Shown here one piece after another: positions 1 through 20,189 of a DNA stretch of 20,189 nt (its first letter is position 1; every line of letters begins with the position of its first letter). The position numbers and the translations under genes are program-made. Below the pieces are notes generated by a model that was given only the letters and a program-made list of their open reading frames with translations, was not told the DNA's origin and searched no databases. Origin of the DNA: a virus; the IMG/VR virus record IMGVR_UViG_3300007229_000134, positions 1-20,189 of that record. One strand, 5' to 3'.

Positions 1-225
1 AAAACGTTTTGTGGCTTATTAGGGCGTTTGATACCTGCCACCGTCGCTATCGCTGTAACTCACAAGATTGATCTAGCGGCAATGATGCAATTAGCAGACA
101 CAAACGTGCAACGTTTAAACGCACCCGATACAATAGAACACGAACAATCTAATACCGTTATAGTTGAGCAAGTAGTAAGCGATATTCAACCTATGGATAA
201 TAACCCAATGAAATCAAAGACTTAG
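1..225 (+). CDS. C-terminal end of a gene cut by the window start; possible small terminase subunit
   Basis: The frame is open from base 1 to a TAG at 223-225, giving 74 residues of a protein whose start lies outside the window. A TTG at 28 could in theory start it, but it has no ribosome binding site and the frame is open upstream, so a truncated gene is the better reading. The visible part begins with a short hydrophobic stretch (GLLGRLIPATVAIAV, about residues 5-19), then a mixed helix-like segment and an acidic, probably flexible tail rich in V, E, Q and N ending in MKSKT. Its position directly before the large terminase, and the LLGRLIP-type segment near the C-terminus, fit a small terminase subunit, which would bind the packaging site on phage DNA. 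That identity is inference from position and a weak motif only. Confidence 0.55.
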   Translation, partial: KTFCGLLGRLIPATVAIAVTHKIDLAAMMQLADTNVQRLNAPDTIEHEQSNTVIVEQVVSDIQPMDNNPMKSKT

Positions 226-445
226 CGTGTTTATGTTTCACGTTTTGACTTTCCATAATATACGTTATGCGATAACTAGCAGCGCAAGACGTTTAAACGT
301 GCTACGGTTTTACGTGTTTCGTTCTAGGCGTGATAGGGGGTACACCCACCCCCACCCCCAGATTTTCCCGCGCGCCTCTGTCTCTGGACCTGTCCAACGC
401 CCTACACGTAAAAATTTTCAGAAAATTTTTTTTTAGGAAAAATAA
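226..445 (+). promoter_or_regulatory. Non-coding leader of the terminase gene with C-rich tract and AT inverted repeat
   Basis: No convincing gene lies here. From left to right it holds an AT-rich part with a TTGACT (245-250) and a CATAAT (254-259) that are not spaced as one promoter; the palindrome ACGTTTAAACGT (289-300); a short hairpin GGGGGT/ACCCCC (336-341 with 348-353) followed by a repeated ACCCCC, giving strong strand asymmetry (342-360); and an AT-only inverted repeat AAAAATTTT/AAAATTTTT (410-418 with 422-430) running into a T tract to 434. The terminase ribosome binding site AGGAAA (435-440) follows directly. The region could hold a promoter, a packaging recognition site or a genome end. 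Nothing in the sequence decides between these. Confidence 0.5.
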
Positions 446-1975
446 ATGGCTAAACAAGAAGCACACCCCCAAGAGGAACAGTTAATGCTCAAGCTGTTCA
501 GTTTTAAAGATGATCCGCTTGGGTTTGTGCTGTACGCATTCCCGTGGGGACAACCCAACACACCCCTTGCTAATCACGATGGACCGCGTGATTGGCAACG
601 CAAGGCGCTTTCTCAAATGCGCGACCACATTTTAGAGAACAATCGAAAAGTAACACACGGTAATGTGCCAGAGCTTATGAAACTCGCAAGAGCGTCAGGG
701 CGTGGGATTGGGAAGTCAGCATTCCTTGCTTGGATTAGCATCTGGTTGTTTTCTTGTTTACCGTCTAGCACCGTTATTGTGTCAGCGAACACGGAGCAGC
801 AACTCAAGTCCACAACGTTTCCTGAGATTAGGAAGTGGGCAACGATGAGTATTAACAGCAGGTGGTTTGAACACAACGCAATGTCTCTTAGACCTGCGGA
901 ATGGTTAATTGAAGCTCTTAAAGCAACAACGGGTTATGATGATGCGTACTGGTATATCCAAGCACGGCTGTGGTCAGAAGAAGCGCCAGACGCCTATGCG
1001 GGTATCCACTCACAGATGGGGATGGCGGTTTTATTTGATGAGGCAAGCGGCATCCACTCAGCTATCTGGCCCGTGGCGCAAGGGTATTTTACAGACAAGA
1101 CAACACATAGGTTCTGGATTGCTATCTCTAATCCAAGAAACCCCAGTGGTGAGTTCTTTGAATGTTTCCACGGGAACAGGGACCAGTGGAATAACGAAAC
1201 GATAGACGGCAGAAGTGTTAATGAGAACGACCACACGCTGTATAATGACATCATATCTCAGTACGGCGAGGACTCCGACCAAGCCAGAGTTGAGGTGTAT
1301 GGGAAGTTCCCACGTCAGGGGGATTATCAGTTTATAGGTCGAGGGGATGTAGACGATGCAATAGCGCGTGAAGCGGTTGATGACCCCGGCGCGGCGTTAG
1401 TTATGGGTGTAGACCCGGCACGGTACGGGGATGATAGTGCGGTAATAGCATACCGCATAGGGCGAGACGCATCGTCCATACCGTTCGAGCGGTATAAGAG
1501 TTGTAGCATAACAGAGCTTGCGGAACACGTAGCGCGTGGGATTGAGAAGTATAAACCAAACGCGGTGTTTGTTGAGGGTGATGGGGTAGGCGGCGGTGTT
1601 GTAGACGTGCTAAAAGATAATAACTTTAATATTATAGAGGTTAAGACAGGGGGCGGCGCGCAGGATAAAGATGCGTATGCCAACCACCGGACAGAGATGT
1701 GGGGGCGGGTTAGAGATTGGCTACCAACCGCGTCACTGCCAGCTATAAAAGAACTTGCGGATGACCTGTGTGGGCCGATGTATGACTTTAATCTTAAAGG
1801 CCAGCTCAAGCTGGAGCCTAAAGAGAAAATGAAGAAACGCGGACACGCCAGCCCTGACTTTGCAGATGCGTTAGCTGTGACGTTTAGTCGTGTAATAGGT
1901 AGAACAGACGCGACGACAGGGCGCAGTAGAAGAAGACAGGTTGCAAATGATATGGATTATGATATGTTTGGATAG
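446..1975 (+). CDS. terL: Terminase large subunit (packaging ATPase-nuclease)
   Basis: This 509-residue protein is the DNA-packaging motor. It hydrolyses ATP to drive phage DNA through the portal into the prohead and cuts the concatemer with its C-terminal nuclease. The ATPase half shows a Walker A loop, GRGIGKS (residues 85-91), and a Walker B, VLFDE (195-199, with D198 and catalytic E199). The RNase-H-like nuclease half shows the expected acidic positions: D323 in GVDPARYGDDS, E377/D379 in FVEGDGVGGG, and D471/D474 in SPDFADALA. Length and domain order are normal for the family. The ATG at 446 has AGGAAA about five bases upstream. The gene is separated from the following structural genes by a strong terminator at 2020-2049. 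It uses many ATA, AGG, AGA and GGG codons, unlike the capsid gene. Confidence 0.96.
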   Translation: MAKQEAHPQEEQLMLKLFSFKDDPLGFVLYAFPWGQPNTPLANHDGPRDWQRKALSQMRDHILENNRKVTHGNVPELMKLARASGRGIGKSAFLAWISIWLFSCLPSSTVIVSANTEQQLKSTTFPEIRKWATMSINSRWFEHNAMSLRPAEWLIEALKATTGYDDAYWYIQARLWSEEAPDAYAGIHSQMGMAVLFDEASGIHSAIWPVAQGYFTDKTTHRFWIAISNPRNPSGEFFECFHGNRDQWNNETIDGRSVNENDHTLYNDIISQYGEDSDQARVEVYGKFPRQGDYQFIGRGDVDDAIAREAVDDPGAALVMGVDPARYGDDSAVIAYRIGRDASSIPFERYKSCSITELAEHVARGIEKYKPNAVFVEGDGVGGGVVDVLKDNNFNIIEVKTGGGAQDKDAYANHRTEMWGRVRDWLPTASLPAIKELADDLCGPMYDFNLKGQLKLEPKEKMKKRGHASPDFADALAVTFSRVIGRTDATTGRSRRRQVANDMDYDMFG

Positions 1976-2019
1976 TAAAGCGATACCCCCCTTTCGTTTT
2001 ACACCTCCCTGTTTAAACT

Positions 2020-2049
2020 TACTCCGGCCTTGCGCCGGAGTACTTTTTT
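2020..2049 (+). terminator. Intrinsic terminator after the large terminase
   Basis: A 9-base-pair GC-rich stem (TACTCCGGC at 2020-2028 with GCCGGAGTA at 2034-2042) closes a 5-base loop and is followed by six Ts (2044-2049). This is a textbook Rho-independent terminator. It lies 44 bases after the terminase stop and separates terminase from the portal-capsid run. The palindrome GTTTAAAC (2011-2018) ends one base before the stem. Confidence 0.9.
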
Positions 2050-2076
2050 GTGTTAGCGTTCAGAAATTAGTATTAT
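2048..2076 (+). promoter_or_regulatory. Possible sigma-70-type promoter for the head gene run
   Basis: TTGTGT (2048-2053) and TATTAT (2071-2076) are spaced by 17 bases. The -10 matches the bacterial consensus at five of six positions, the -35 at only three. It lies just downstream of the terminator and upstream of the first gene of the next unit, which makes it plausible. The predicted start near 2083 would leave an untranslated leader of only about 14 bases, with the ribosome binding site almost at the 5' end. Confidence 0.3.
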
Positions 2077-2096
2077 GTTATTATGGAGAGACAACT

Positions 2097-2309
2097 ATGG
2101 GCGGTATATTTAGTTCCCCTTCAATTCCTGCGCCCGCACCTGCGCCACCCCCACCAACGCGTTCGGACCCTGATGTTCAAGGGGCTGCGATAGACGCCCG
2201 CAGACGTTTGGCGGCAAGGTCAGGTCGCGCCAGTACTATCCTAACAAGTGGTCAGGGTGTGACCGATGAGACACCGTCTACGACTAAGACTTTGCTAGGA
2301 ACCGCGTAA
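2097..2309 (+). CDS. Small phage protein with proline-rich N-terminus and TLLGT tail, function unknown
   Basis: This 70-residue protein starts MGGIFSSP, continues with an alternating Pro/Ala stretch (about residues 8-20), then a basic segment (DARRRLAARSGRAS, about 32-45) and ends KTLLGTA. Small proteins with this layout are recurrent between terminase and portal in podoviruses and related phages; to my knowledge they have no assigned function. The ATG at 2097 is preferred over in-frame upstream codons because GGAGAG (2085-2090) sits six bases before it and the terminator lies further upstream. The stop overlaps the next start as TAATG, so the two are probably translationally coupled. The basic GRAS...TLLGT part recurs at the end of the next gene. 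Confidence 0.8.
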   Translation: MGGIFSSPSIPAPAPAPPPPTRSDPDVQGAAIDARRRLAARSGRASTILTSGQGVTDETPSTTKTLLGTA

Positions 2310-3220: not shown

Positions 3221-3221
3221 T

Positions 3222-4841
3222 ATGGAAAATGACATTGCCACAGGTGTAATCAAACGGTACGACGCCCTTAAAGGCCAGCGTGGTACTTGGGAGAACCATT
3301 GGGAAGAGATAGCAGACAGGGTGATGCCCCGCTACTCTGGCTCTATGCAGTCTCCTGACAGTGGGATAACCCGTGGCGAGAAACGCACTAGCAAGATGTT
3401 TGACAGTACCGCCGCGTTAGGTCTTGAACGTTTTGCTGCTGCAATGGAGAGTATGCTAACACCGCGTAACAGTCGGTGGCACAGGTTAAGTGTAACAAAC
3501 CCAGACCTGTCAAAAGATCGTGAAGTAAAACTGTATTTTGAGCAGACAACTAACATACTGTTTAAACACCGCTACTCACCTAAAGCAAATTACTCTAGCC
3601 AACAGCATGAGGTCTACATGGGCCTTGGTGCGTTCGGTACGAGTGCTATATTTCCAGACGCGCATGATGATGGCGGCTTACGTTATCAATCTATAGACTT
3701 ACGGGAAATACTGTTTGATATGAGCCATCAAGGTATGGTGGACACAAGCTATCGTAAGTACAGCTTGACCGCACGTCAGATGCAACAGCGCGTCGATGTA
3801 AAACGCTGGGAAAGTATACCCGAAGCCATTAGTAAAGCGGTCAAGGACCAGCCTGATAAAAAGTTTGAAATTATACATTGTGTTCGGCCTCGTTCAGAAG
3901 TTGACCCGCGCAAGATGGATTACAGAGGTAAAAAGTTTGCCTCGTACTATGTCAGCGTCGAGGGTAAACACTTATTGAGCGAGGGTGGTTTTAACACCTT
4001 CCCCTATCCAATCAGCCGCTACGTCACTGGACCCGGTGAGATTTACGGGCGTTCACCCGCTATGTTGGTCTTGCCATCAATTAAAGTTCTTAATGAGCAG
4101 AAGAAAACAATGCTTAAGCAGGGTCACAGAGTTGTAGACCCCGTATTGCTATCCCATGACGACGGGGTGCTGGACTCGTTTAGTATGAAACCGGGAGCGA
4201 TGAACCCCGGTGGCGTATCTGCCGAAGGTCGATTGATGGTGCAGACGCTACCCACGGGCAACTTGGCAGCGGGTCAAGAGCTAATGGACATGGAAAGACA
4301 AGTAATAAACGACGGATTTTTAGTTAGTTTATTCCAAATCTTAGTGGATACACCAGCTATGACGGCTACTGAAGTGTTGGAGAGAGCCAGAGAAAAAGGC
4401 GCACTCCTATCACCTACAATGGGTCGTCAACAGTCTGAGATGCTTGGGCCTATGATTGATCGTGAGCTAGACCTTTTAAATATGCAGGGTTTACTGCCGC
4501 AGATGCCAGAGGCTTTGATTGAAGCAGAAGGCGAGTATGACGTGGCCTATGACAGCCCTCTCAGTCGCTCTCAGAGAGCCGAAGAAGCTACAGGCTACTT
4601 GCGCACCTTTGAGACGGCTATTGCTCACGCAAACACAACACAAGACCTCAGTGTTATGGACTATTTTAATACTGACGTAATCTACCCGGCTTTGGCTGAG
4701 ATTAACGCAATGCCTGAGAGTTGGATGAACGGACCAGAACAAATAGAAGCCTTACGACAGCAACGCGCTCAACAGCAACAGACACAGCAAATGATTGAGG
4801 CCGCACCCGCCGCCGCAGGTGTAATGAAAGCGTTAGGGTAA
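3222..4841 (+). CDS. Portal protein (head-to-tail connecting protein family)
   Basis: This 539-residue protein forms the dodecameric ring at one capsid vertex through which DNA enters and leaves and to which the tail attaches. The N-terminal half has the signature of the podovirus head-tail connector family (Pfam Head-tail_con type): an amphipathic start with W residues (TWENHWEEIADRVMPR), then LERFAAAMESMLTPRNSRWHRL, the VYMGLGAFGTSAIF block and the FPYPISRY...GEIYGRSPAM block (about residues 260-285). A C-terminal helical region ends in a Gln-rich tail (about 505-525), likely the crown or barrel part. Length is typical of the family. It starts at 3222 with TAGGAA six bases upstream, and its stop overlaps the next ATG (TAATG). 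Confidence 0.93.
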   Translation: MENDIATGVIKRYDALKGQRGTWENHWEEIADRVMPRYSGSMQSPDSGITRGEKRTSKMFDSTAALGLERFAAAMESMLTPRNSRWHRLSVTNPDLSKDREVKLYFEQTTNILFKHRYSPKANYSSQQHEVYMGLGAFGTSAIFPDAHDDGGLRYQSIDLREILFDMSHQGMVDTSYRKYSLTARQMQQRVDVKRWESIPEAISKAVKDQPDKKFEIIHCVRPRSEVDPRKMDYRGKKFASYYVSVEGKHLLSEGGFNTFPYPISRYVTGPGEIYGRSPAMLVLPSIKVLNEQKKTMLKQGHRVVDPVLLSHDDGVLDSFSMKPGAMNPGGVSAEGRLMVQTLPTGNLAAGQELMDMERQVINDGFLVSLFQILVDTPAMTATEVLERAREKGALLSPTMGRQQSEMLGPMIDRELDLLNMQGLLPQMPEALIEAEGEYDVAYDSPLSRSQRAEEATGYLRTFETAIAHANTTQDLSVMDYFNTDVIYPALAEINAMPESWMNGPEQIEALRQQRAQQQQTQQMIEAAPAAAGVMKALG

Positions 4842-5167
4842 TGGAACAGAAAAAACGAGACATACGCCCGCTTAAACAAGGAGAGTTTAGACAAAATAAA
4901 GACGGAACGCGCTCAACTGAAATAAGTAAGACAGTTACGCACCCTAACATTAACAACGGTGCGCCAACTAACATTCCTTCATTGTATGTAGTTAACGGCA
5001 AAGTTACAGAATTTCCTGATGACGACGAAGCGGTAAAAGCCGCACAAGATACAGGTTTACAGTTTCCTAGTTTTCCCGATATACCTTCCGCAGTTAAAGA
5101 TGCGCAAACGCGCAGCAACGAAGGCGGGATTGCCGCAGGTAAAATTGGTGAGGTAATTAAAGAGTGA
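4841..5167 (+). CDS. Small conserved phage protein between portal and scaffold, function unknown
   Basis: This 108-residue protein starts in the portal stop (TAATG) and ends in a GTGA overlap with the next gene. The middle (IPSLYVVNGKVTEFPDDDEAVKAAQDTGLQ, about residues 46-75) and FPSFPDIPSAVKDAQTRSNEGG (about 76-97) form a recognisable small-phage-protein pattern that I associate with proteins next to portals in BPP-1-like and other podoviruses. The N-terminal 35 residues are strongly basic and charged. No catalytic motif or membrane segment is visible. It is probably a minor head or assembly factor, by position only. Confidence 0.8.
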   Translation: MEQKKRDIRPLKQGEFRQNKDGTRSTEISKTVTHPNINNGAPTNIPSLYVVNGKVTEFPDDDEAVKAAQDTGLQFPSFPDIPSAVKDAQTRSNEGGIAAGKIGEVIKE

Positions 5168-5415: not shown

Positions 5416-5420
5416 AACAC

Positions 5421-7583: not shown

Positions 7584-7586
7584 ATA

Positions 7587-8048
7587 ATGGCTACTACATA
7601 CAGTGTCCAAAAAACTAAGTGGAACCAAGATACGCCAACTACACGAATTAAGCCTAATGAACAGGCTGGTCGTGTGCGTGTTGCTTACGCATTAGCTGAA
7701 GCATCATCGCTTGCTGTTGGTCCAATTGAAATGTTTAACCTTCCGAATGGGGCGCGTATCCTTTCGGGCGAGTTAATGCATGACGCTCTTGGCGGTTCTA
7801 CTACAGCTTCTGTAGGCCACGCGGCTTATAAGAATGCTGACGGTACAGTTGTTGCTCTTGACGTTGATGAATACAAAGCTGCGGCGGCATCAACTTCAGT
7901 TACTACAGTTGATATCGCTGCTACATCAGCACTTGGTCGCAACAGTGTTGTCGATGCAGACGCTGATGGTATCCCCATCACGGTTGTAATCGCTGGCGCT
8001 GCGGCTACAGGAACCATTGAGTTGACAATGTTGTACGTTGTTGACTAA
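7587..8048 (+). CDS. Capsid cement/decoration protein candidate (Bbp16-like by position)
   Basis: This 153-residue protein starts four bases after the capsid stop with a strong ribosome binding site (CGGAGG, 7573-7578, inside the end of the capsid gene). It is small, Ala/Thr/Val-rich and probably beta-rich: alternating segments such as RVRVAYALAEASSLAVGPIE, ARILSGELMHDALGGSTTASVGHAA, and IPITVVIAGAAATGTIELTMLYVVD at the end. In BPP-1 the gene after the capsid gene encodes the cement protein (Bbp16) that stabilises the shell; size, fold type and position match, but I cannot show homology. Codon use resembles the capsid gene, as expected for an abundant virion protein. A strong terminator follows. 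Confidence 0.8.
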   Translation: MATTYSVQKTKWNQDTPTTRIKPNEQAGRVRVAYALAEASSLAVGPIEMFNLPNGARILSGELMHDALGGSTTASVGHAAYKNADGTVVALDVDEYKAAAASTSVTTVDIAATSALGRNSVVDADADGIPITVVIAGAAATGTIELTMLYVVD

Positions 8049-8055
8049 TTGATTA

Positions 8056-8091
8056 GGTGGAGAAGTTTAAACACTTCTCCACCGTTTCTTT
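8056..8091 (+). terminator. Intrinsic terminator after the capsid and cement genes
   Basis: An 11-base-pair perfect stem (GGTGGAGAAGT at 8056-8066 with ACTTCTCCACC at 8073-8083) closes the 6-base loop TTAAAC and is followed by the T-rich GTTTCTTT (8084-8091). It would end transcription of the abundant capsid message before the tail genes, or reduce read-through. The palindrome GTTTAAAC (8065-8072) spans the loop and the top of the stem. The T run is interrupted, so termination may be partial, which would suit the tail genes having no other obvious promoter. Confidence 0.82.
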
Positions 8092-8115
8092 ACGGGTTAA
8101 AGCTAGGAAACACCA

Positions 8116-8712: not shown

Positions 8713-11465
8713 TGGCAAAAGTATCCGCCATTCAAAACAATTTTAACGGCGGAGAAATCTCTCCGTTGCTTTTTGGTCGTCCTGACGTGGACAAATACAA
8801 AACAGGTTTGCAAACGTGTTTAAACTTTGTCCCTTTAATTCAAGGTCCAATAGAACGTCGTCCCGGTATGGGGTTTGTGAAAGAAGTTAAAACAAGCGCC
8901 AATTTAACGCGCATTATACGTTTTGAGTTCTCTACTACTCAAGCTTACATTATTGAACTAGGTAATTTGTACGCACGTTTTTATAAAGATAACGGAGCTA
9001 TCTTAGACGGGGCTAAAACAATCTCTGCGGCAACTAAAGCTAACCCTTGCGTAGTTACAGCCACATCACATGGGTATAGTAATGGCGATGAAATTTTCAT
9101 AGATGCTGTAGTTGGTATGACCGAACTAAACGGTAAATATTATAAGATTAAAAACAAAGCTACAAACACGTTTGAACTAACCAACATTGACGACGTAAAC
9201 ACTAACTCAAGTTCGTTTACAACATACGGTTCTGGCGGAACAGCATCTAAAACAATTGAGTTAGTAACAACGTACACAACCGCTAATTTGTTTGAACTTA
9301 AATTTACACAATCGGCAGACGTACTCTATATTACGCACCCATCTTATACGCCTCGTAAAATATCCCGCACGTCCGACACTGATTGGTCAATAACTGATAT
9401 TACTTTTACAGATGGGCCTTATTTAAACTCAAATGTCGAAACAACTACGCTAGGTTTGTCCGCAACTTCCGGTTCAGTAACCGTTACTGCTTCAGCGGTG
9501 ACAGGTATTAACGACGGTAGTGGTTTTTTAGCTACCGATGTAGGGCGCTCAATACGTTGGAAAGACGCAGCAGGTAACTTTACTTTTCTAGGAATTACTG
9601 CTTTTACTGACACAACTCACGTTACGGCTACTATTGATGGACCAAACGCGTCTGCTACAACAGCCACTGTAGACTGGCGTTTAGGTGTGTGGTCAAACAC
9701 TACAGGTTTTCCTTCTGCTGTAACGTTTCACCAAGACAGATTAGTGTTTGGCGGTGGTGTAGATTTCCCTCAACGGGTTGACATGAGCCGCACAGGTGAT
9801 TTTGAAAACTTTACACCTACTGAACCTGATGGAACAGTAGTTGACGATAACGCGGTGACCGTTACATTAGCTGCGGATAACGTTAATGCTATTCGCTGGT
9901 TAGCTGACGATGAAAAAGGTTTACTGGTAGGGACTGTTGGCGGTGAGTGGACTGTTCGCCCTTCAGACGCGGGTGGGGTTACTACGCCATCAAACGTTCA
10001 AGGTAAACGGTCTTCTGCCTACGGTAGTGCTAATGTGCAGCCCGTAAGAGTGGGTCGCGCAATGTTATTTTTACAAAGAGCGCAACGAAAGTTGCGAGAG
10101 TTAGCGTTTGCGTTTGAGGATGACGGTTTTAGAGCGCCAGACATGACGCTAATTGCAGAACACGTTACTCGTACAGGCGTTACTGAAATTGCGTATCAAT
10201 CGGAGCCACAAAGTATTGTATGGTGTGCGCTTAACGATGGGACTTTAGTAGGTCTGACATACGAAAGAGATCAAAAGATTATCGGGTGGCATCGTCATGT
10301 TGTGGGCGGATACAGCGACAGTGGTGGCACAATACAAGCTAAAGTTGAGAGTGTAGCCGTCATTCCTAACCCTGAAGGGGTTGCTGATGAATTGTACGTA
10401 GTAGTTAACCGCTACATTAACGGCGCTACACGCAGATACATAGAATATTTAAATTCTTTTTGGGATGCCACAAACGATCCAGAAGATTCTTTTTTTGTTG
10501 ATAGTGGGTTAACTTTAGATAACCCAACTACTATTACCGCTATTACTAAAGCTAAACCTTGTGTTGTTACTGCGGGTTCTCACGGTCTTTCAAACGGAGA
10601 CACGGTTAGAATTACCGAAGTTGGTGGCATGACCGAAGTAAACAAGGGCGTCTATCGTATTGCATCAAAAGCCGCAAACACAATGGAATTGTTTAACACT
10701 GCGGAGAAAAAAGTAACTATTTCAGCAGCTACAGCAGCAAATCCTGTTGTTATAACGGCTGTAGGCCACGGGCTATCTAACGCAGATGAAGTAGCTATTT
10801 TTGATGTTGTTGGAATGACAGAATTAAATGGTCTAGGTTTTACAGTAGCTGGCGTTACCGCAAACACTTTTCAGCTATCTGGTATTAATGGCTCTGGTTA
10901 CACCACTTACGTTTCTGGTGGCGACATACACAGCGCCATAGATAGTTCAGCTTTTACTACTTATTTAGCTAACGGTAAAGTAAGGCAACGGGTAACAACT
11001 CTGTCAGGGTTAGATCATCTTGAAGGTCAAACCGTATCTATATTATCTGAAGGCGCTACCGTACCTGATAAAACCGTATCGTCAGGCGCTATTACTTTTA
11101 GCCGCCCAACTACTAAAGCTCACGTAGGACTAGCCTACACTTCTGATGCGGAAACACTTAGGTCCGATGCAGGAGCTAAAGATGGTACGGCTCAAGGTAA
11201 ATTAATTCGTGTGCATCGTGTAATTGTTAGATTTTTCCAATCGTTAGGCGGAAAGATCGGTTCTACAAACACAAGTTTAGATTCTTTTCATTTTCGTGAA
11301 GGGGGTGACGCAATGGACACGGCAATACCTTTATTTACCGGAGATGTTGAAATTGAGTGGGATGGCGGGTACAGTTCAGATGAACACATCTTTATTCGAC
11401 AGGATCAACCATTACCAATGACATTGGAAGCACTAATGCCTCAAATGTCCACTCAGGATAGATAA
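8712..11465 (+). CDS. Tail tubular protein B, T7 gp12-like nozzle, with FCCH-like repeats
   Basis: This 917-residue protein is the tail nozzle. Its start shows the podovirus signature NFNGGEISPLLFGRPDVDKY...NFVPLIQGPIERRPG (about residues 8-50), and later blocks (TFHQDRLVFGGG, EWTVRP, IVWCALNDGTLVGLTYERDQKIIGWHRH) are typical of the family. The ATG at 8712 overlaps the previous stop as TAATG; a GTG seven codons upstream lies within the previous gene and is not preferred. It is longer than T7 gp12 (794 residues), largely because of three copies of a small beta module (about residues 103-177, 606-663 and 669-737) with the pattern TISAAT.ANP.VVTA..HGLSNGDEV.I..VVGMTELNG...I....ANTFEL, resembling the E1_FCCH-type domain annotated in many phage tail proteins. 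Confidence 0.92.
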   Translation: MAKVSAIQNNFNGGEISPLLFGRPDVDKYKTGLQTCLNFVPLIQGPIERRPGMGFVKEVKTSANLTRIIRFEFSTTQAYIIELGNLYARFYKDNGAILDGAKTISAATKANPCVVTATSHGYSNGDEIFIDAVVGMTELNGKYYKIKNKATNTFELTNIDDVNTNSSSFTTYGSGGTASKTIELVTTYTTANLFELKFTQSADVLYITHPSYTPRKISRTSDTDWSITDITFTDGPYLNSNVETTTLGLSATSGSVTVTASAVTGINDGSGFLATDVGRSIRWKDAAGNFTFLGITAFTDTTHVTATIDGPNASATTATVDWRLGVWSNTTGFPSAVTFHQDRLVFGGGVDFPQRVDMSRTGDFENFTPTEPDGTVVDDNAVTVTLAADNVNAIRWLADDEKGLLVGTVGGEWTVRPSDAGGVTTPSNVQGKRSSAYGSANVQPVRVGRAMLFLQRAQRKLRELAFAFEDDGFRAPDMTLIAEHVTRTGVTEIAYQSEPQSIVWCALNDGTLVGLTYERDQKIIGWHRHVVGGYSDSGGTIQAKVESVAVIPNPEGVADELYVVVNRYINGATRRYIEYLNSFWDATNDPEDSFFVDSGLTLDNPTTITAITKAKPCVVTAGSHGLSNGDTVRITEVGGMTEVNKGVYRIASKAANTMELFNTAEKKVTISAATAANPVVITAVGHGLSNADEVAIFDVVGMTELNGLGFTVAGVTANTFQLSGINGSGYTTYVSGGDIHSAIDSSAFTTYLANGKVRQRVTTLSGLDHLEGQTVSILSEGATVPDKTVSSGAITFSRPTTKAHVGLAYTSDAETLRSDAGAKDGTAQGKLIRVHRVIVRFFQSLGGKIGSTNTSLDSFHFREGGDAMDTAIPLFTGDVEIEWDGGYSSDEHIFIRQDQPLPMTLEALMPQMSTQDR
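9018..10923 (+). repeat. Three FCCH-like modules inside the tail nozzle gene
   Basis: Protein-level repeats encoded at about 9018-9243, 10527-10700 and 10716-10923 share the pattern 'NP or KP, then VVTA, HGLSNGDEV, VVGMTELNG, ANTFEL'. The second and third are adjacent and the first lies about 430 residues earlier. Copies 1 and 3 are closest in sequence (both have VVGMTELNG, and a TTY.SGG end), so copy 3 may derive from copy 1 or the reverse. Confidence 0.85.
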
Positions 11466-11887
11466 TGCTGGTAGTACCTTTTAAAGCAGAGCATTTAGAA
11501 AAACTAAAACTACAGGACGCACAGATGTATTTAAGCGGTTGGGTATCACCAGAGCAAGGACAAGCGTTAGAAGCGCACCCGTCCTATACGGCGGTAGACA
11601 ACGACACACCGCTTGCTGCTGCGGGGGTAATACCCCAATGGCAAGGTAGATCGTTAGCGTGGGCTTTTCTATCCCCAATGGGGCCGCGTCAATTTGTTGG
11701 TGTGCATAGAGCGGTTAAGAATTTCTTAGATGCGTGTTACACTCAACGCATAGAGATGACTGTTGATGTTGATTTTCTAGAAGCCCACCGTTGGGCTAAG
11801 ATGTTAGGATTTAAAATGGAAGCGGAGCGAATGGAAGCGTATTCCCCAGATGGTCGCGCCTGTGCTTTGTATGCGAGGGTCTTATGA
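11465..11887 (+). CDS. GNAT-fold virion-associated protein, T7 gp13-like
   Basis: This 140-residue protein starts in the previous stop (TAATG) and ends in an ATGA overlap. The pattern looks like a GNAT (acetyltransferase) fold: a strand with GVIPQWQGRSLAWAFLSPMG (about 57-76), a helix with VHRAVKNFLDAC, a strand IEMTVDVDFLEAHRWAKMLGFKMEAERMEAYSPDGR (about 95-130) and a final strand ALYARVL. The usual acetyl-CoA loop (Q/RxxGxG/A) is not evident, so it may not be an enzyme. T7 gp13 and relatives at this map position have this type of fold and are needed for correct virion assembly. A structural or assembly role is therefore the better guess. Confidence 0.75.
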   Translation: MLVVPFKAEHLEKLKLQDAQMYLSGWVSPEQGQALEAHPSYTAVDNDTPLAAAGVIPQWQGRSLAWAFLSPMGPRQFVGVHRAVKNFLDACYTQRIEMTVDVDFLEAHRWAKMLGFKMEAERMEAYSPDGRACALYARVL

Positions 11888-12354: not shown

Positions 12355-12363
12355 AGGTAAGTT

Positions 12364-14667
12364 ATGGCTAACAAAATAACTCCAGCAGGTAATGTTAGAT
12401 TTGTCCCGCAAACTGCTCGCGCCGATGTTGCCTCAATGGGTGGGGGTGGTAAAGGGCTTATTAGCGCGGGGCAAGATATATCCGGTTTTGGTGATTTTGT
12501 AGCAGAGAAAACAGAGCGCGACAGTAAAAGCTACGCTGATTTAACTTACATGGAAGGTCGGAGCGAGTGGGCCGAAAGACTGAAGACTAGCGAAGCCGCT
12601 GCGGTAGCGGGCGCTGATGGTTTTACTAAAACGGTAAAAGACGATTTTGATACATGGTCGGCTACAAAATTAGGGAGCGATAAGCTTACTTCAACGGCTA
12701 AAAAACATTTAGCAAAACAGCTTGAAAGTTTAAAGGGTACTCTGGTCGGGAAAGCAGTAGACTTTGAAACAGTGTCTAGAACACGTTTAAACGTTTTAAA
12801 TACTAAGAATACGCTTTCTGCTGGCATTAACGCTGCGTACCAAGACATTCAAATGTTTACAGGAAGTCTTGAACAAGGATTAGAAACAATTAAAGATTCG
12901 CGTATATCAGACGACGCAAAACTTGAAGTTGAACGCGAGTTTCGCGAAGACCTTGCTTACCGCACATTAGTCGGTGAGGTACACCGTGACCCTGATAGTG
13001 TTATAGAAATGCTTACAGGGGATTACTGGCAGACACAGTTAAGTCCAGCGGGATTAAGTCAAATTACCCTTTCAGCTAACAACAAGAAAAATCAATTAGA
13101 CGCTAAAGCATTAAACCAACAAAACAAAAGTAACACCGCTTTTAGGATAGGAATTAATTCTGTACGTGAAAGACTTATTGGAGGTTTTGGTGTTAGCAGC
13201 AGTGAGATGACACAACTTACAACATTAGGGAAGTTGTCAGACGACCCCATAGCTCACGCAAGTTTAACCCGGCTTCATGCGTTTAAAGATTGGCGTGTTG
13301 AAGCTAGTAAAATGTCCGTGCCAGAAGTAAACGCTTTTTTAACTGCGGGGCCGCAGCAGGGACAACCAGCCACTGAATTAGAGTTTATGCAAGTTAAAGC
13401 TGCTCGTAGTATTTTATCAAAGAAAACTACAGAAGCTAATGCCGCCGGACGTGATATGATAGCCGCACTTTTGCCAGTTGCAGAGCTAGGTGAATTACCT
13501 ATAAAAGACGTGGTTATGATACAAGCTCTAATCCCAAGTATAGATGACCCTGACGTATTACGCAAAATGACTAATTTAGTAAACGAAGGATTGCACAGAG
13601 GTTGGGTAGCTAAAAGTGACTTAACTTTAGCGAATACGCAAGCTTATGTTGCTGCTTTTAGTCTTCATGCAGAAAGAACAGATGGCATTTCTACGGTTGA
13701 AGCAGAAACAATAAAGTTGCATAGCGCGTATTTAAAAGAAATGCAAAACGTACTTACTAAAAAAGGCCCGATTTCATGGGCTGCCCAATCAGGAAACATG
13801 GATATACCACCAATAGATATTAAATCTTCCAGTAGTTTAAAAGACCGTTTTACTGCTGCAAACGAGGCTAAAAATAAATATGGAGTTGAAAACTATCAAT
13901 TTTTTCTGCCAGAAGAGCTTTCACAAGTTCAGACAGCAATATTTGAAATGGATGCTAATCAACGCGTAGAATTGTATCGCACTATAGTCGGTACGGGTGG
14001 GCCAGACTCGTACAAGGTGTTTAATGAATTAAGCGAAAAAGGAGCTTCTGGTACAGGGTATGTAGCAGGTATGGCTTCCCACGATCAACACTTAACAATT
14101 GCTTTAGAAATTGAGCAAGGTCGAAAAACGTTAGAACAACCTAATGGTTCTAAAAATTTACCGTCGTCTGGTTTGCGTGAAGTGTTTAACACAGAAATAG
14201 GTGATGCTTTTATGAATATGCCTAATCATGTTAAAGAAGGTATGTATGCTGCTCTTGAAGGTTTGTATGTTAAACGAGGTTTGCCATCAGGTACTGTTAA
14301 AATTACTAATAGTGATGTAAAAAAGTTAATAAAAGAAGTTCATGGCGGAACTATTATTCCTCGTAACAACAGCCGACTAGTCTTACCTATAGGAAAAACA
14401 GAAGAATATTTTGAAAACGCAGTAACAAGTTTAGATAACGAAGAAATTATGTTGCAAGTCTTTGATGGGGTTGTTCCGGTTAATCAACAAGGTAACACGG
14501 TTACTGGAGAAAAATTACTATCAAACAGTCATTTTAGGTACGTTGGTGATGGTCAATATCGTGTGCAACATAAGGGTACTAACAAGTATTTACGCCACCC
14601 CGGTTCTAATAAAGTTTTAATAATGGACCTTAACAAACTTGAAAACTACTACGAGAGTTTTGAATGA
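12364..14667 (+). CDS. Large internal virion (ejection) protein 1, T7 gp15-like position
   Basis: This 767-residue, largely helical protein starts ten bases after the previous stop with AAAGGTAA upstream and ends in an ATGA overlap. It begins with a disordered Gly-rich stretch, MGGGGKGLISAGQDISGFGDFV, and continues with long charged helices (about residues 45-270) of the kind seen in the first ejection protein of BPP-1-like and T7-like phages. The C-terminal 75 residues (FENAVTSLDNEEIMLQVFDGVVP..., then HFRYVGDGQYRVQHKGTNKYLRHPGSNKVLIMDL) form a small beta domain that I associate with ends of such virion proteins. In several relatives a lysozyme or transglycosylase domain precedes this end; I see no such catalytic motif here. 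Likely role: released with DNA and part of the conduit through the cell wall. Confidence 0.8.
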   Translation: MANKITPAGNVRFVPQTARADVASMGGGGKGLISAGQDISGFGDFVAEKTERDSKSYADLTYMEGRSEWAERLKTSEAAAVAGADGFTKTVKDDFDTWSATKLGSDKLTSTAKKHLAKQLESLKGTLVGKAVDFETVSRTRLNVLNTKNTLSAGINAAYQDIQMFTGSLEQGLETIKDSRISDDAKLEVEREFREDLAYRTLVGEVHRDPDSVIEMLTGDYWQTQLSPAGLSQITLSANNKKNQLDAKALNQQNKSNTAFRIGINSVRERLIGGFGVSSSEMTQLTTLGKLSDDPIAHASLTRLHAFKDWRVEASKMSVPEVNAFLTAGPQQGQPATELEFMQVKAARSILSKKTTEANAAGRDMIAALLPVAELGELPIKDVVMIQALIPSIDDPDVLRKMTNLVNEGLHRGWVAKSDLTLANTQAYVAAFSLHAERTDGISTVEAETIKLHSAYLKEMQNVLTKKGPISWAAQSGNMDIPPIDIKSSSSLKDRFTAANEAKNKYGVENYQFFLPEELSQVQTAIFEMDANQRVELYRTIVGTGGPDSYKVFNELSEKGASGTGYVAGMASHDQHLTIALEIEQGRKTLEQPNGSKNLPSSGLREVFNTEIGDAFMNMPNHVKEGMYAALEGLYVKRGLPSGTVKITNSDVKKLIKEVHGGTIIPRNNSRLVLPIGKTEEYFENAVTSLDNEEIMLQVFDGVVPVNQQGNTVTGEKLLSNSHFRYVGDGQYRVQHKGTNKYLRHPGSNKVLIMDLNKLENYYESFE

Positions 14668-16640
14668 GTTTTTTACAGAGCAAACCGTTAGACGTTATAG
14701 GTGGCGTACCCGGTCAGTGGAATGAAACTACAGATTTTACAGAAAATTTTGTAGCTACATTAAACGATGATAATCTCCGCATGGCAGCTAATGGTCTAGA
14801 AGTTGCTATACAAGATGATTACATAGCTAACGCCGCGTCATATTTTGCAGCAACTGGCGAAAAATTATATGAAAATGAGTTGTTTCGCAGCAACTACCTT
14901 AACGGCGCACGTCAAGAAGAGGGTAAAGATACAGAAGTAGACTCAAATTTAACGGAACAATACGCTCAATTTGAGCAAGCAAATCAAAGGTTACAAGCAT
15001 ACAGAGAAGCTAACCCAGAAGATAACAGCGTTAAACTTTTTGGTGAACTTTGGAGCGGTGTTAAATCCCGCAGTAAAGACCTTCGGGGGGTCGCAGCAAG
15101 AATTGGCGAGTCCGCTGGTATTACTGGTAAGTTAGGTGCGTTCAGCGCAGGTTTAGTAGCCTCAATGAACCCTCGCACTAATTTTCTTAATTTTGCTACG
15201 TTAGGTATAGGCGGCGTAGGTCAAACAGTTACTAAGCGTATATTAACTGAAATTGCAGCAGGTGGCGGAATTGAAGCCGTTAACCAATTTACAGGAGTTT
15301 CAGAACGCCAAGCGTTAATGGGTGTCAGTACAACAACAGGTGAAAAATTAACACAAGTAGGTTTTGCGGCAGCGGGTGCGGGGCTACTACGAGGCGCTGG
15401 TGAACTTGCGCCAGTAGCAGGGCGGGCAATAGAGCAACAAGTAGCACCGCAACGCGCACTTGGACGCGCTATGTTACAAAAAACTAACCAAGTAAATTTA
15501 CAACAGACGCGTCAAAAAGCCTACGAAGATGCAGTAATTAAATTAGACCCTAACTTGTTTAAACCTTCCGATCAGGCAGCTATTATTGCAGAGCAAAGCA
15601 ATATTCTGTTTGCCAGAGCAAACCCTTACGGCGACACAGATACTGGGCTTAATTTACACCATGAAAAACTCATGGATGCAATGGAACCTATGCTTAACAA
15701 GTTAAAAGCCGACCTTAGTGGGTCTACACGAATGCCTAATACAACACCAATATATACTAAACCAGATTTTGAAGCTGTGCAGGGCGACCCGGCGATTACC
15801 GAAATGAATAAAAATCCGGCTGTAATAGAGTACGCACGTAATAAGAACCCTGATTTAATTAACAAGTATGAGCGTTTAAGCACTGAAATTGCAGAAGAGC
15901 GTAGACGTTTAGACGATATACGTCAAGAGTTACCGGGGCAAGAAGTCGCGCAAACAATAGGACGCGCTGAAGATGAGTTAGCTGCACTTGAAACTAAGGC
16001 AAGAGGCGCGTCAGCTAAGAACAAAAAGAAAATACAGAAAGAAATTAATGCTAAACGTGAAGCACTAGTTGAGCAAGAATTGCGGCTAACTAGCGCAGAA
16101 AACGCTAAAGAACGAGTTACTCGTGAGGCGCTTCAAGCTGCGGATAACGAATTACGTGACATTGCTCCAGAGATATCTGCGTTGTTAAAGCAAGGTAGAG
16201 ACGCGCTACCCCGCCCAGAATTTGCGCCACCTAAGATTAGCCCGTCAGGTCGCGTTGCTGTTGAGGACATTATGCAACGTCAAAAAATTGACGCTGAACG
16301 TCCAGCACAATCGCTTGTAAGTGCGCTAGACCGTCACACTATAAATGGTATGCCTTTGCAAGACTACGCCGCAAAAGCAGCTAAAGAATTAAAAGATATA
16401 GAACCAAAGTTAGACGAAATGCGTAATACACAAACCGCAGAACACATGAGTTCTATAGATAGTGAAAAAAACACTATAAATTTAGGGCGTGGTATCGGTG
16501 ATGTCGATTTAGACAACACAATCATTCAGATTACGGACGCAGAAACAGGCGGCACGGTGACACTACGCGAATACTTAGACCAAGGTAAGCAAGATGACGA
16601 GTTGTTAAAAGCCTTATCTACTTGCCCAACGGGGATATAA
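14664..16640 (+). CDS. Large internal virion (ejection) protein 2, with coiled coil
   Basis: This 658-residue protein overlaps the previous stop (ATGA). Residues 1-150 are mixed helical (MSFLQSKPLDVIGGVPGQWNE start). About 153-250 is a Gly/Ala-rich, weakly hydrophobic region (KLGAFSAGLVASMNP, NFATLGIGGVGQTV, VGFAAAGAGLLRGAGEL) that could insert in or line a membrane. About 395-510 is a strong coiled coil with EERRRLDDIRQEL and AEDELAALETKARG heptads. The C-terminus is polar and acidic. No enzyme motif was found. Position between two other ejection proteins and this architecture suggest a part of the DNA ejection apparatus. The N-terminal half resembles the N-termini of large podovirus internal proteins, while the rest I cannot place. 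Confidence 0.75.
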   Translation: MSFLQSKPLDVIGGVPGQWNETTDFTENFVATLNDDNLRMAANGLEVAIQDDYIANAASYFAATGEKLYENELFRSNYLNGARQEEGKDTEVDSNLTEQYAQFEQANQRLQAYREANPEDNSVKLFGELWSGVKSRSKDLRGVAARIGESAGITGKLGAFSAGLVASMNPRTNFLNFATLGIGGVGQTVTKRILTEIAAGGGIEAVNQFTGVSERQALMGVSTTTGEKLTQVGFAAAGAGLLRGAGELAPVAGRAIEQQVAPQRALGRAMLQKTNQVNLQQTRQKAYEDAVIKLDPNLFKPSDQAAIIAEQSNILFARANPYGDTDTGLNLHHEKLMDAMEPMLNKLKADLSGSTRMPNTTPIYTKPDFEAVQGDPAITEMNKNPAVIEYARNKNPDLINKYERLSTEIAEERRRLDDIRQELPGQEVAQTIGRAEDELAALETKARGASAKNKKKIQKEINAKREALVEQELRLTSAENAKERVTREALQAADNELRDIAPEISALLKQGRDALPRPEFAPPKISPSGRVAVEDIMQRQKIDAERPAQSLVSALDRHTINGMPLQDYAAKAAKELKDIEPKLDEMRNTQTAEHMSSIDSEKNTINLGRGIGDVDLDNTIIQITDAETGGTVTLREYLDQGKQDDELLKALSTCPTGI

Positions 16641-16641
16641 T

Positions 16642-19107
16642 ATGTCGTATAGAAATTGTATTGTAGAAAGTATTGGTAGCAAACACGCAAAGCATGAAGA
16701 CGCTAAAGTGTTACTAGATCAATTTGACAGCCGCGTTAATGAGATGTTAGGTGACGGTGTTCCGCGTGAACGAGCCGAAAGTGCTGCCGCCGCCGAACTA
16801 ATAGAAGCAAAAACTTTTAAAAACTCAGCGGATCAAGCTCGCCGCATTCGTGACGCGCAGGTACAGATACGACTAACTGACCGTATTATGAAATTAAAAA
16901 ATCGCCCCGGTAAAGAGTTAACTAAGATATATTCGGAAGTTGAATATGTTTCGCGTGGTTATTTAGGGCGTTTTAACGGTTTAATGGTTGATATGCTTGA
17001 TAAATACGACACACGGGTAATTGGGGCATTCCGTTCAAAAGCGGGTTTAGACGATTATATTAAAGAGTTATACGGTAAGGACACAAAAAGCACGGCTGCA
17101 AAAGGGTTATCTGAAGCTACTAAAGAAATGTACGCGGACTTTGCTCGTCTGGCTAAAGCCGCAGGGGTAGACATGGTAGAAGACCCCAATTTTCACGCGC
17201 CTCAAATGCACGACGTTGGTAAAATGTCTAAAAACAGAGATAAGTGGATTGAGGACCATAATGGTGACGGTGTGTTAGATTGGGAACACATGAAACAATT
17301 TAACGGCGGGAAAATAATAGAAGAGAGTGACCGCGTTCGTGTTTTAGGTGAAGTACATACAACAATAACTACAGGCGGTTTAAACAAAATTACTTTTGAC
17401 TATCGCCCAGAAGTAGGGGTAGCCAGCCGTTTAACTAACAAACGTTTTTTGCGGTATAAAACACCGGAATCGTGGTCTAGTATGCAAAGTGAGTATGGTC
17501 GAGGAACGTTAATTGATCAGCTTATTGACTACATGGGCCAAGCGTCACGCGATTTAGCTCAACTACAAGTGCTTGGACCTAACCCCTCTATAATGAAACG
17601 CCGTTTAGAGGCTGCTGTAAAGATGCGAACAAGCCAATTGGTAGATGAAGCGCAAACAAAAGGTGACCTTAAAACTCAAAAAAAATTGTTACACAGTGTG
17701 TCAAGAGATATAAATGACTCAGATAGTGTGTTTGGTTTTGTAACCGGACGTAACGCAGATGTTGAACTTAATAACGTTGGAATTGTTATGAGTACAATAC
17801 GGACGCTACTACCCGGCGCGCTATTAGGTAAAGCTATTTTTTCTGCTGCACCGGGCGACATAGCTACTATGAAATCTGTGTCACGTTTGTCTGGACACAA
17901 AGCTATGTCTCCCATAGCTTCCTACTTAAAAATGATTAACCCAGCTAGTAAAGCTGACCGTGAGTTTGCCCGTCAGATGGGTGTAGTTAATGATTTAGCT
18001 TTAGGTAATTTAGCAGCAGCCGAACGTTTTGGTGGCGACCCGTTTGGCCCTAAATGGGCGCAACGACTTACCGAAGGCGCTCTGCGTTTAAGTTTGTTAA
18101 GCCATCACACTCAAATGTCCCGAAACACATTCTCATTAGAGATGATGGGTAGTTATGCGCGTAACGTAAACAAAACTTTTGATAAAATAGATTTTAAAGA
18201 GAGTATGGAACGTGCAGGTATTACCGCTGAAGATTGGGATATTGTGCGTCAAACAGAATTAACTGACCACAAAGGCGCAAAATTTTTAAACCTTAACGAC
18301 ATGATCCATCGCACAGATATAAGTGCAGACGTAGCAAATGATCTTTTTGCAAAATTTACCGCGTACAATCAGAACTTATTAGAGATGGCAGTTCCTACGT
18401 CGTCTGTTGAAGCTAAATCAGTGTTGATTGGTGGCACTACCGCTGGTACTTTTAAAGGTGAAGTGCTTAGATCAGTTGCCGTATTTAAAAATTTCCCTAT
18501 TACTATAATGATGAAACATCTTGCAGAAGGTATGGCGCGGGAAGGTGCTTTAAATAAAGGTAAATATTTTGTTACGTTTTTAGCATATCTTACCGCTGCT
18601 GGCGCACTATCTGAACAAATTCACGTCATGTCCCGTGGTGAAGACCCTCGCAGTATGAACCCATTTACAGACCCTACGTTTTGGCCTGACGCAGTAGCGC
18701 GGGGTGGGGGGTTATCTTTGTTTGCAGACTTCTTAACATCCGATGTAAACAGATACGGCGGCGGGTTTTTTAAAAGTTTGTTAGGCGCTCCTGCCGCTGC
18801 ATTGGATGGTTTTGCAGAGTTAACTGTAGGAAACGCACAAAGCGCACTACAAGGTGAGGACACTAAGATTGTCCAGCAACTTGTTGGAACGCTAAGAAAA
18901 ATAGTTCCCGGTTCACACCTTTGGTATGTAGATAGAGCCATAACATCACTTGTAGATGAATTTATACTTGAAGATTTAGACCCTAATTTTCAAAACAGAG
19001 CAACTAAGAAAATTAATGACTTAGACGAGGAAGGGCGAGGTATGTGGTGGGAAGCTGGAAAACTACTACCTACAAGAGCGCCAGATTTGAGTAGTGCTTT
19101 TCGGTAG
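16642..19107 (+). CDS. Large internal virion (ejection) protein 3, conserved podovirus family
   Basis: This 821-residue protein starts two bases after the previous stop with GGGGAT upstream. It belongs to a recognisable family of C-terminal parts of giant podovirus internal proteins: RFLRY...W..M...YGRG.LID...DYMGQASRDLAQLQVLGPNP (residues 268-315), then INPASKADREFARQMGVV and WAQRLTEGALRLSLLSHHTQMSRNTFSLEMMG (about 430-505), a hydrophobic stretch YFVTFLAYLTAAGAL (642-656), VPGSHLWYVDRA (755-766) and a WWEAGKLLPTRAPDLSSAF end. A calcium-loop-like DHNGDGVLDWEH is at 205-216. In other phages this part is often fused to a peptidoglycan-cutting domain; here it stands alone. It is likely ejected into the host with the DNA. 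The gene end overlaps a promoter-like sequence for the fibre gene. Confidence 0.82.
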   Translation: MSYRNCIVESIGSKHAKHEDAKVLLDQFDSRVNEMLGDGVPRERAESAAAAELIEAKTFKNSADQARRIRDAQVQIRLTDRIMKLKNRPGKELTKIYSEVEYVSRGYLGRFNGLMVDMLDKYDTRVIGAFRSKAGLDDYIKELYGKDTKSTAAKGLSEATKEMYADFARLAKAAGVDMVEDPNFHAPQMHDVGKMSKNRDKWIEDHNGDGVLDWEHMKQFNGGKIIEESDRVRVLGEVHTTITTGGLNKITFDYRPEVGVASRLTNKRFLRYKTPESWSSMQSEYGRGTLIDQLIDYMGQASRDLAQLQVLGPNPSIMKRRLEAAVKMRTSQLVDEAQTKGDLKTQKKLLHSVSRDINDSDSVFGFVTGRNADVELNNVGIVMSTIRTLLPGALLGKAIFSAAPGDIATMKSVSRLSGHKAMSPIASYLKMINPASKADREFARQMGVVNDLALGNLAAAERFGGDPFGPKWAQRLTEGALRLSLLSHHTQMSRNTFSLEMMGSYARNVNKTFDKIDFKESMERAGITAEDWDIVRQTELTDHKGAKFLNLNDMIHRTDISADVANDLFAKFTAYNQNLLEMAVPTSSVEAKSVLIGGTTAGTFKGEVLRSVAVFKNFPITIMMKHLAEGMAREGALNKGKYFVTFLAYLTAAGALSEQIHVMSRGEDPRSMNPFTDPTFWPDAVARGGGLSLFADFLTSDVNRYGGGFFKSLLGAPAAALDGFAELTVGNAQSALQGEDTKIVQQLVGTLRKIVPGSHLWYVDRAITSLVDEFILEDLDPNFQNRATKKINDLDEEGRGMWWEAGKLLPTRAPDLSSAFR

Positions 19108-19115
19108 TATATGAT
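19087..19115 (+). promoter_or_regulatory. Sigma-70-type promoter candidate for the tail fibre gene
   Basis: TTGAGT (19087-19092) and TATGAT (19110-19115) are separated by exactly 17 bases. The -35 matches four and the -10 five of six consensus bases. The predicted start falls at about 19122, the first base of a GTTTAAAC palindrome (19122-19129). The ribosome binding site AAGGAA (19132-19137) and the fibre ATG at 19146 follow. It overlaps the last codons of the upstream gene. This is the best-spaced bacterial-type promoter I found in the window. Confidence 0.5.
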
Positions 19116-19145
19116 AAGATTGTTTAAACGTAAGGAACCCACACA

Positions 19146-20189
19146 ATGACCATAAGCTCTACAGTAAACCGCGTAAGTTACTCAGGCAACGGAAGCACAA
19201 CCGCTTTTTCGTTTGGTTACTTGTTTTTCAGCAACGCAGACCTCAAGGTTATTCTTGTTGTAAACAGCACAGGCGCTGAGACAACAAAGACTATTACCAC
19301 GCATTACACTATTACTGGTGCGGGTGACGCGTCTGGCGGCACGGTTACTATGGGTACAGCTCCTGCGTCTGGAGAAACACTAGTTATTATTCGTGAAGTT
19401 GGCCTTACACAAGGGCTAGACCTAGTTGAGAACGACGCTTTTCCGTCTGACCTAGTTGAGCAAGAGCTTGATCGGGCAACAATGATGGCGCAACAAATCA
19501 ACACAGAGGTTGATAGATCGTTTAAACTGTCTGATGGTGATACATCAGGAGTAGACACAACGCTTCCTACACCTGTTGCCTTAAAAACATTTCGTTGGAA
19601 CGCTGGGCTAACTGCATTAGAAGAAGCTGATGACCCCGGCGCTGCTACGACTGCGGCGGCTGCAAGTGCGGTTACTGCTTCTACCAAAGCAGATGAAGCA
19701 GTAGCCTCTGCTGCTACGGCAGTAGCGTATGCTGTTAAAGTTGACGGCGCTGCGGCGGGTAGTGACCACAGTTCAAAAGCTTGGGCTGTTGGTGGAACGG
19801 GCATAACCGACACTTCGAGCAAAGGAGCTGCGAAAGAATGGGCTTCTAATCCAGAAGACGATACTGTTGCTGGAGCAGGAACATTCTCTGCTTTACATTA
19901 CTCAGCTAAAGCAACGGCTCAAGCAACACTCGCAACCAACTACGCAACTAAAATTAATGGTGCTGTAACTGGTTCAGACTTTAGTTCTAAAGCTTGGGCG
20001 GTTGGAGGTACAAACGTCACCAGCACTGGCAGTCGTGGAGCCGCAAAAGAGTGGGCTACTACAACAGGGGCCGCTGTTGATACGAGTGAATTTTCTAGTA
20101 AAGAGTATGCACTAGGAACTACTCTCACTACAGGATCATCTAAGCAATGGGCGTTAGGTGGTGGCAGTTCATTTACGGAAGGAACAGCG
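19146..20189 (+). CDS. Tail fibre protein, T7 gp17-like N-terminus (partial, runs off the window)
   Basis: The frame is open for 348 codons from ATG 19146 to the last base; the receptor-binding end is missing. AAGGAA lies nine bases before the ATG. Residues 1-130 fit the T7 gp17-type N-terminal tail-attachment domain: a start with STVNRVSYSGNGSTTAFSFGYLFF, a TITTHYTIT strand, then VTMGTAPASGETLVIIREV and a DLVEQELDRATMMAQQINTEVDRSF helix. An Ala/Thr-rich linker, probably coiled or helical (about 160-195), leads to repeats of 71 residues beginning YAVKVDGAAAGSD (195) and YATKINGAVTGSD (266), each with SSKAWAVGGT and GAAKEWA, and a third degenerate unit (SSKEYALGTT, SSKQWALGGG). The fibre trimer binds the host receptor; its specificity cannot be read from this part. 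Confidence 0.93.
   Translation, partial: MTISSTVNRVSYSGNGSTTAFSFGYLFFSNADLKVILVVNSTGAETTKTITTHYTITGAGDASGGTVTMGTAPASGETLVIIREVGLTQGLDLVENDAFPSDLVEQELDRATMMAQQINTEVDRSFKLSDGDTSGVDTTLPTPVALKTFRWNAGLTALEEADDPGAATTAAAASAVTASTKADEAVASAATAVAYAVKVDGAAAGSDHSSKAWAVGGTGITDTSSKGAAKEWASNPEDDTVAGAGTFSALHYSAKATAQATLATNYATKINGAVTGSDFSSKAWAVGGTNVTSTGSRGAAKEWATTTGAAVDTSEFSSKEYALGTTLTTGSSKQWALGGGSSFTEGTA
19728..20189 (+). repeat. Tandem 71-residue repeats in the tail fibre shaft
   Basis: Two tandem in-frame units start at 19728 and 19941 (period 213 bases) and share GAA.GSD.SSKAWAVGGT and GAAKEWA at the protein level with moderate DNA identity. A degenerate third element (SSKEYALG, SSKQWALGG) follows up to the window end, so more copies may lie beyond it. 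Related SSKAWA-type repeats are common in fibres of marine podoviruses. Confidence 0.8.

Follow-up and report, generated by a model that had tools for sequence, protein, structure and literature searches.

The stretch of DNA analysed here, referred to as the window, comprises the 20,189 nucleotides of the IMG/VR virus record IMGVR_UViG_3300007229_000134 and carries 11 exact copies of the 8-base palindrome GTTTAAAC, for which we propose that the probable reader is a SprT-like protein encoded by the phage itself. The leftmost copy (113..120) lies inside the terminase small-subunit gene, whereas the next one (291..298), which extends to ACGTTTAAACGT, is intergenic, in the gap between the genes of the small (TerS) and large (TerL) terminase subunits. 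A third copy (2011..2018) is found 36 bp past the TerL stop codon, directly 5' of a terminator-like hairpin, and is followed by a copy within the portal gene (3560..3567). Downstream of the gene at 7587-8048, the copy at 8065..8072 lies in the upper stem and loop of a hairpin that reads GGTGGAGAAG-TTTAAACA-CTTCTCCACC in the sequence. The large tail gene contains a copy at 8818..8825, and the three genes that span 12364-14667, 14664-16640 and 16642-19107 contain the copies at 12785..12792 (again extended to ACGTTTAAACGT), 15557..15564 and 17378..17385, respectively. Finally, the copy at 19122..19129 is located 24 bp 5' of the start of the fibre gene, just downstream of a TATGAT sequence that by eye is a putative -10 box, and the last copy (19520..19527) is within the fibre gene. 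The site upstream of the fibre gene is also present in the relative G051, at 23 bp.

The initial annotation had counted these copies by eye, and all 11 were found where it had placed them. The excess that it proposed was confirmed, as the average over 100 dinucleotide shuffles of the window was 0.79 copies and no shuffle had more than 3, and Markov models of order 3 and order 5 predicted 1.7 and 3.4 copies. GTTTAAAC is the top 8-mer of the window, where the runner-up among 8-base palindromes has 4 copies; its one-mismatch neighbours are not raised (none exceeds 3 copies on a strand), just as the annotation had observed. Four copies had been described as non-coding, which agrees with our own gene calls, in which 4 copies fall in the ~3% of non-coding sequence (p = 2e-4), but the coding copies occupy all three reading frames and not two as had been stated. 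With 100% identity, the window matches a portion of IMGVR_UViG_3300025806_000079 (G002), a 37,221-base contig of the epsilon15-like podovirus type whose terminase matches that of SPN1S and relatives at ~35%. In this contig, there are 27 copies of GTTTAAAC, many and dispersed as stoperators would be, and 10 of the 27 are intergenic compared with a 9.6% share of non-coding sequence (p = 1e-4).

Among relatives of the window's phage, gathered from IMG/VR by terminase and capsid, GTTTAAAC behaves as an on/off trait, being strongly enriched in some of them and amounting to zero in others. In G051, GC content is 57% and 12 of the 13 TTTAAA hexamers are part of GTTTAAAC. As most site positions are not shared from one relative to another, density is conserved more than place. 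The idea in the initial annotation that intergenic positions might be conserved holds for the site after the terminase, since a copy within 75 bases after the TerL stop occurs in 12 of 17 enriched relatives and in none of 28 non-enriched ones, while each of the other two intergenic sites tested is shared by few relatives (3/17 and 2/7). The pooled flanks of the sites read Y-GTTTAAAC-R, and in the window's family position -5 is also a purine, mirrored by the complementary pyrimidine on the opposite side.

A scan of IMG/VR by motif alone (three GTTTAAAC within ~80 bp), chosen to avoid relying on gene content, recovered several unrelated phage groups with 10-28 copies in 5-14 kb, spread along their length, the highest example having 28 copies in 9 kb. 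Some of the matches were simple tandem arrays rather than dispersed copies (e.g., L192, with 29-bp spacing). Tight arrays of 6-12 copies, spaced by 16-17 or 24-26 bp, were noticed in L175, L184 and L169, which suggests cooperative or handcuffed binding. When the proteins of the enriched loci and of the window's family were clustered, the most widely shared family, present in 12 genomes, was phrog_6361, a SprT-like zincin with a C-terminal zinc ribbon that is listed as "unknown function" and whose members are often annotated as "SprT-like protease". All loci found at that stage to encode the protein had an excess of GTTTAAAC. In whole records, site density was 0.49-2.07 per kb in the 9 with phrog_6361 and 0.06-0.61 per kb in the 24 without it; in the window's phage family, 7 of 7 loci with the SprT gene were enriched, against 1 of 13 loci without it (p = 1e-4), and this sole case is a short fragment.

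We also considered that another DNA-binding protein of the phage reads the word, for instance the small XRE helix-turn-helix protein (72 amino acids) encoded in G002 (reverse complement) at 11598-11816, upstream of the window and downstream of the primase gene. A similar XRE gene is at the same place in G002 and G043, but it was not found in G051 with its 12 sites. The XRE protein is not among the proteins common to unrelated enriched phages, and we discarded it as the reader; this alternative seems to us hardly credible.

The SprT-like gene of the window's phage is on the minus strand of the 37-kb contig (L006:8408-9004), and its start codon precedes the window by ~550 bp. Its product matches the phrog_6361 profile over residues 4-197 of 199 (E = 2e-37) and the Pfam family PF10263 with 31.4 bits, above the gathering cutoff of 25.6, and it has the sequences HEMCH and GHG, such that HExxH and the third histidine are present. 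The AlphaFold2 model, with a mean pLDDT (predicted local distance difference test) of 86 and values of ~70-74 in the loop region that precedes the ribbon, fits a SprT fold to which a ribbon is attached; the best match of the model among PDB folds, and the best sequence-profile match, is SPRTN, both being weak. HExxH is retained in most homologues. In L184 and in L181/L209, it is gone and the sites are very dense, and as these two lineages keep dense sites, proteolysis is not needed for the pairing of protein and word.

We then reversed the direction of the search with cultured phages picked for encoding the protein and not for the motif. Dinoroseobacter phage R5C and Pseudanabaena phage Pan1 each have 10 copies of GTTTAAAC in 50 kb, with 0.37 and 0.12 expected, and in both phages each TTTAAA lies within GTTTAAAC; Burkholderia phage Mica has 7 copies, with 0.12 expected. 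In the actinophages that bear the protein, GTTTAAAC counts are zero or almost zero and the strongest 8-mer is the one-base variant GTGTAAAC, with 23 copies in UtzChips (0.34 expected), 20 in Pumpkins (0.77) and 32 in Marky (1.15). The palindrome CGAGCTCG was tried as the actinophage word and set aside, GTGTAAAC being far stronger. In Bacteriophage 4A, GTGTAAAC is also the top 8-mer (13 copies, 0.65 expected). Escherichia coli phage ep3 and the Pseudomonas phage KM389229 have only 4 and 2 copies of GTTTAAAC, one copy in each being ~20 bp upstream of the SprT gene. The word was not found in FP1, Epa43 and Brahms, whose homologues lost the loop, nor in Min1, a phage without an annotated SprT gene. 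Apart from this, ep3 (vB_EcoM-ep3, L217) has a separate dispersed motif, ACAANNNTTGT, with 11 copies and 0.69 expected, and ATAANNNNNTTAT occurs 8 times in Pan1 (L215) and 4 times in R5C (L213), with 0.01 expected; the latter is possibly the site of a second regulator in Nanhaivirus.

The pairing was extended by two protein-led scans, which gave 70 bacterial and 80 viral loci. Closer sets of SprT proteins were used for database scans, one alignment of all the divergent members having proved too variable. After collapsing loci with identical C-terminal sequences, an over-represented word of the form.T.TAAA. was found in 85 of 97 loci with a recognised loop and in 4 of 66 without one (p ~1e-27, a value that overstates independence because the set includes relatives and a few loci first found by the motif). 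The loop, QxTR in most forms, sits before the zinc ribbon, and as it changes, the word is altered at one or two bases. Loci with Q[STGA]TR have GTTTAAAC (38 loci), GTGTAAAC (37) or neither word (11), QPTR is paired with ATTTAAAC (4/4), QKTY with CTGTAAAG (2/2) and GSVGSR with GTCTAAAC (2/2), whereas nearly all betaproteobacterial homologues without the loop have no such word. A possible further specificity is that of L383, whose SprT-like protein has RQTNRHYK and where CGTGTACA occurs 19 times with 0.83 expected, QTNRHYK being the candidate loop for this word.

These results bear on a host-driven origin of the word, in which the host genome would have it as a highly iterated palindrome or for methylation, or the phage would have adapted to the site of a host regulator. 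Palindromes of the HIP1 type are known in cyanobacteria, and HIP1 shares with GTTTAAAC the property of being a short palindrome far above chance in both coding and non-coding DNA (PMC4390886); in addition, GTTTAAAC is the PmeI site. Yet HIP1 is a chromosomal trait tied to methyltransferases (PMC4390886), while here the trait is one of phages and is tied to a candidate phage DNA-binding protein: it toggles among close relatives along with the phage gene, is shown by phages of unrelated hosts and tracks the loop of the phage protein. The PmeI identity looks incidental because other phages with the protein use GTGTAAAC, ATTTAAAC, CTGTAAAG or GTCTAAAC. No methyltransferase was recognised in the 37-kb contig by eye, the Pfam scan covering ten of its proteins only, and since the words of the other phages are not cut by PmeI, we set aside a methyltransferase or restriction site. 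Likewise, restriction escape was set aside for the ATTTAAAC/GTTTAAAT clade, in which the SprT loop is consistently QPTR. A host-driven word is in our opinion highly improbable. From the roles listed in the initial annotation, that of a binding site for a phage protein is singled out by the co-occurrence and co-variation with the SprT-like protein. Nothing was found for a role in modification or restriction within the scope of the methyltransferase scan given above.

In 45 of 108 loci, against 9.4 expected from site density, the 150 bp that precede the SprT gene contain a site, mostly at a distance of 18-60 bp. By eye, this upstream site follows a TACAAT box in Mica and TAGACT in Pumpkins, and overlaps TAAACT in UtzChips. 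Intergenic enrichment is also seen in three annotated actinophages (8/23, 10/20 and 9/32 sites; p values between 8e-4 and 2e-6), where several sites precede a start codon by 22-31 bp. Of the sites in the window, one immediately precedes a terminator-like hairpin and a second is contained in such a hairpin. Judged from the sequence, positions at promoters and terminators would suit a repressor, perhaps acting as a roadblock near terminators. A packaging, replication or segregation mark, similar to a pac site or an origin and with the SprT-like protein as an accessory, would account for the way in which 3-12 copies are tightly arrayed close to the terminase or SprT genes of several phages, and the sites in the window do flank the terminase genes. 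Against it, the copies are dispersed genome-wide, there are sites at promoters and terminators, and in phages whose terminases differ, the word changes along with the loop of the SprT protein, such that we consider a mark of this kind very unlikely.

Alternatively, the sites would be loading points for an active protease that binds GTTTAAAC and degrades host proteins on the phage DNA, much like SPRTN at DNA-protein crosslinks, and their density would matter more than their position at promoters; silencers, restriction or other defence proteins, and crosslinked proteins would be its targets. The protein does share with the SprT/SPRTN (Spartan) DNA-protein-crosslink proteases (PF10263) the SprT-like Pfam match, the top fold match and a mostly present HExxH, although SPRTN is a weak match by both profile and fold, and the many intragenic sites with fairly even spacing, as in R5C, would fit a loading function. 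On the other hand, HExxH has been lost from two lineages in which the sites are very dense, and the sites are enriched intergenically and just upstream of the SprT gene. SprT/SPRTN proteases are not known as sequence-specific binders; in contrast, a specific word is tracked here by the QxTR-type loop that precedes the zinc ribbon. We regard the loading of a protease as unlikely.

We therefore favour, with good but not full confidence, that GTTTAAAC is the recognition site of the phrog_6361 protein acting as a regulator. The pairing of protein and word across many unrelated phages, with the word changing with the loop, is strongly supported by the sequence comparisons, and from it we infer direct binding, dimerisation and repression. 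The loop and zinc ribbon would make direct contact with the DNA, the palindrome probably being bound by a dimer. From a position on the -10 box or immediately behind it, the protein would repress the promoter of its own gene and further promoters of the phage, and its action at intragenic sites and at those close to terminators might be like that of mycobacteriophage repressors at stoperators. Our preferred reading is that the protein would represent a novel kind of DNA-binding regulator in phages, whose sites resemble stoperators. With the Cluster A stoperators and their L5-type repressor (PMC9283540, PMC6550527), the proposed system shares one phage protein with many dispersed short exact sites, enriched between genes, and a likely autoregulatory site. 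The differences are that a SprT-like zincin bearing a zinc ribbon takes the place of the mycobacteriophage repressor, that the site is an 8-base palindrome or near-palindrome, of mixed orientation where this is readable, and that the pairing spans phages of very different hosts, some without a recognised integrase.

Several observations weigh against this regulator. Of the loci with a loop, 12/97 have no word, and 4/66 without a recognised loop have one; given the common ancestry of relatives, few of the changes behind the co-variation are independent. Many sites lie inside genes, for which a pure promoter-operator model is incomplete. Stoperators are oriented with transcription, unlike GTGTAAAC, whose orientation is mixed in the three actinophages (15/8, 6/14 and 21/11); GTTTAAAC is palindromic, and the sites in the window have no readable orientation. 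Neither the window's phage nor the fetched part of R5C has a recognised integrase, so a role in lysogeny cannot be general and a regulator of lytic growth has to be allowed as well.

Many actinophage loci have a serine integrase homologue within 0.3-4 kb on the downstream side of the SprT gene, and in Mica, a tyrosine integrase adjoins the SprT-like gene. For the Microbacterium EH phages and Zeta1847, integrases were reported and no repressor was identified (PMC7302621). Phages of EH and Zeta1847 carry a phrog_6361-type protein. With an integrase nearby and no repressor reported in that survey, a role as immunity repressor is attractive, and the protein would be a candidate for it in some temperate actinophages; as phages of both groups carry the protein, the proposal is directly testable. 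The wider proposal, that phrog_6361 is a new class of SprT-fold sequence-specific regulators which includes the missing immunity repressors of clusters of temperate actinophages, EH and AZ among them, and reads GTTTAAAC-GTCTAAAC by the QxTR loop and zinc ribbon with a specificity traceable in the sequence, is tentative, and we consider it possible rather than probable. The pairing was not reported in the literature that we found for GTTTAAAC, GTGTAAAC or phage SprT, most subscription journals being outside the coverage. With this proposal, a widespread phage family that is listed as "unknown function", or annotated only as a protease, would gain a function and an exact DNA target, and sequence alone suggests a relation between its loop and the specificity for the word. 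If the binding is true, a DNA-repair protease fold would have turned into a sequence-specific DNA reader.

Some minor observations were made on the bacterial loci. In L304 and L296, contigs of Limnohabitans and related bacteria, a strong excess of GGGTCAGA / CTGACCCC (19 copies with 0.69 expected and 12 with 0.44 expected) surrounds a chromosomal SprT-like gene without the loop, and three such loci have a mild excess of GTTTAAAC. Records titled Bordetella parapertussis or Klebsiella pneumoniae (L266, L269, L306 and others) look like metagenome-assembled genomes, and their names are doubtful because their neighbours in the scan are freshwater betaproteobacteria.

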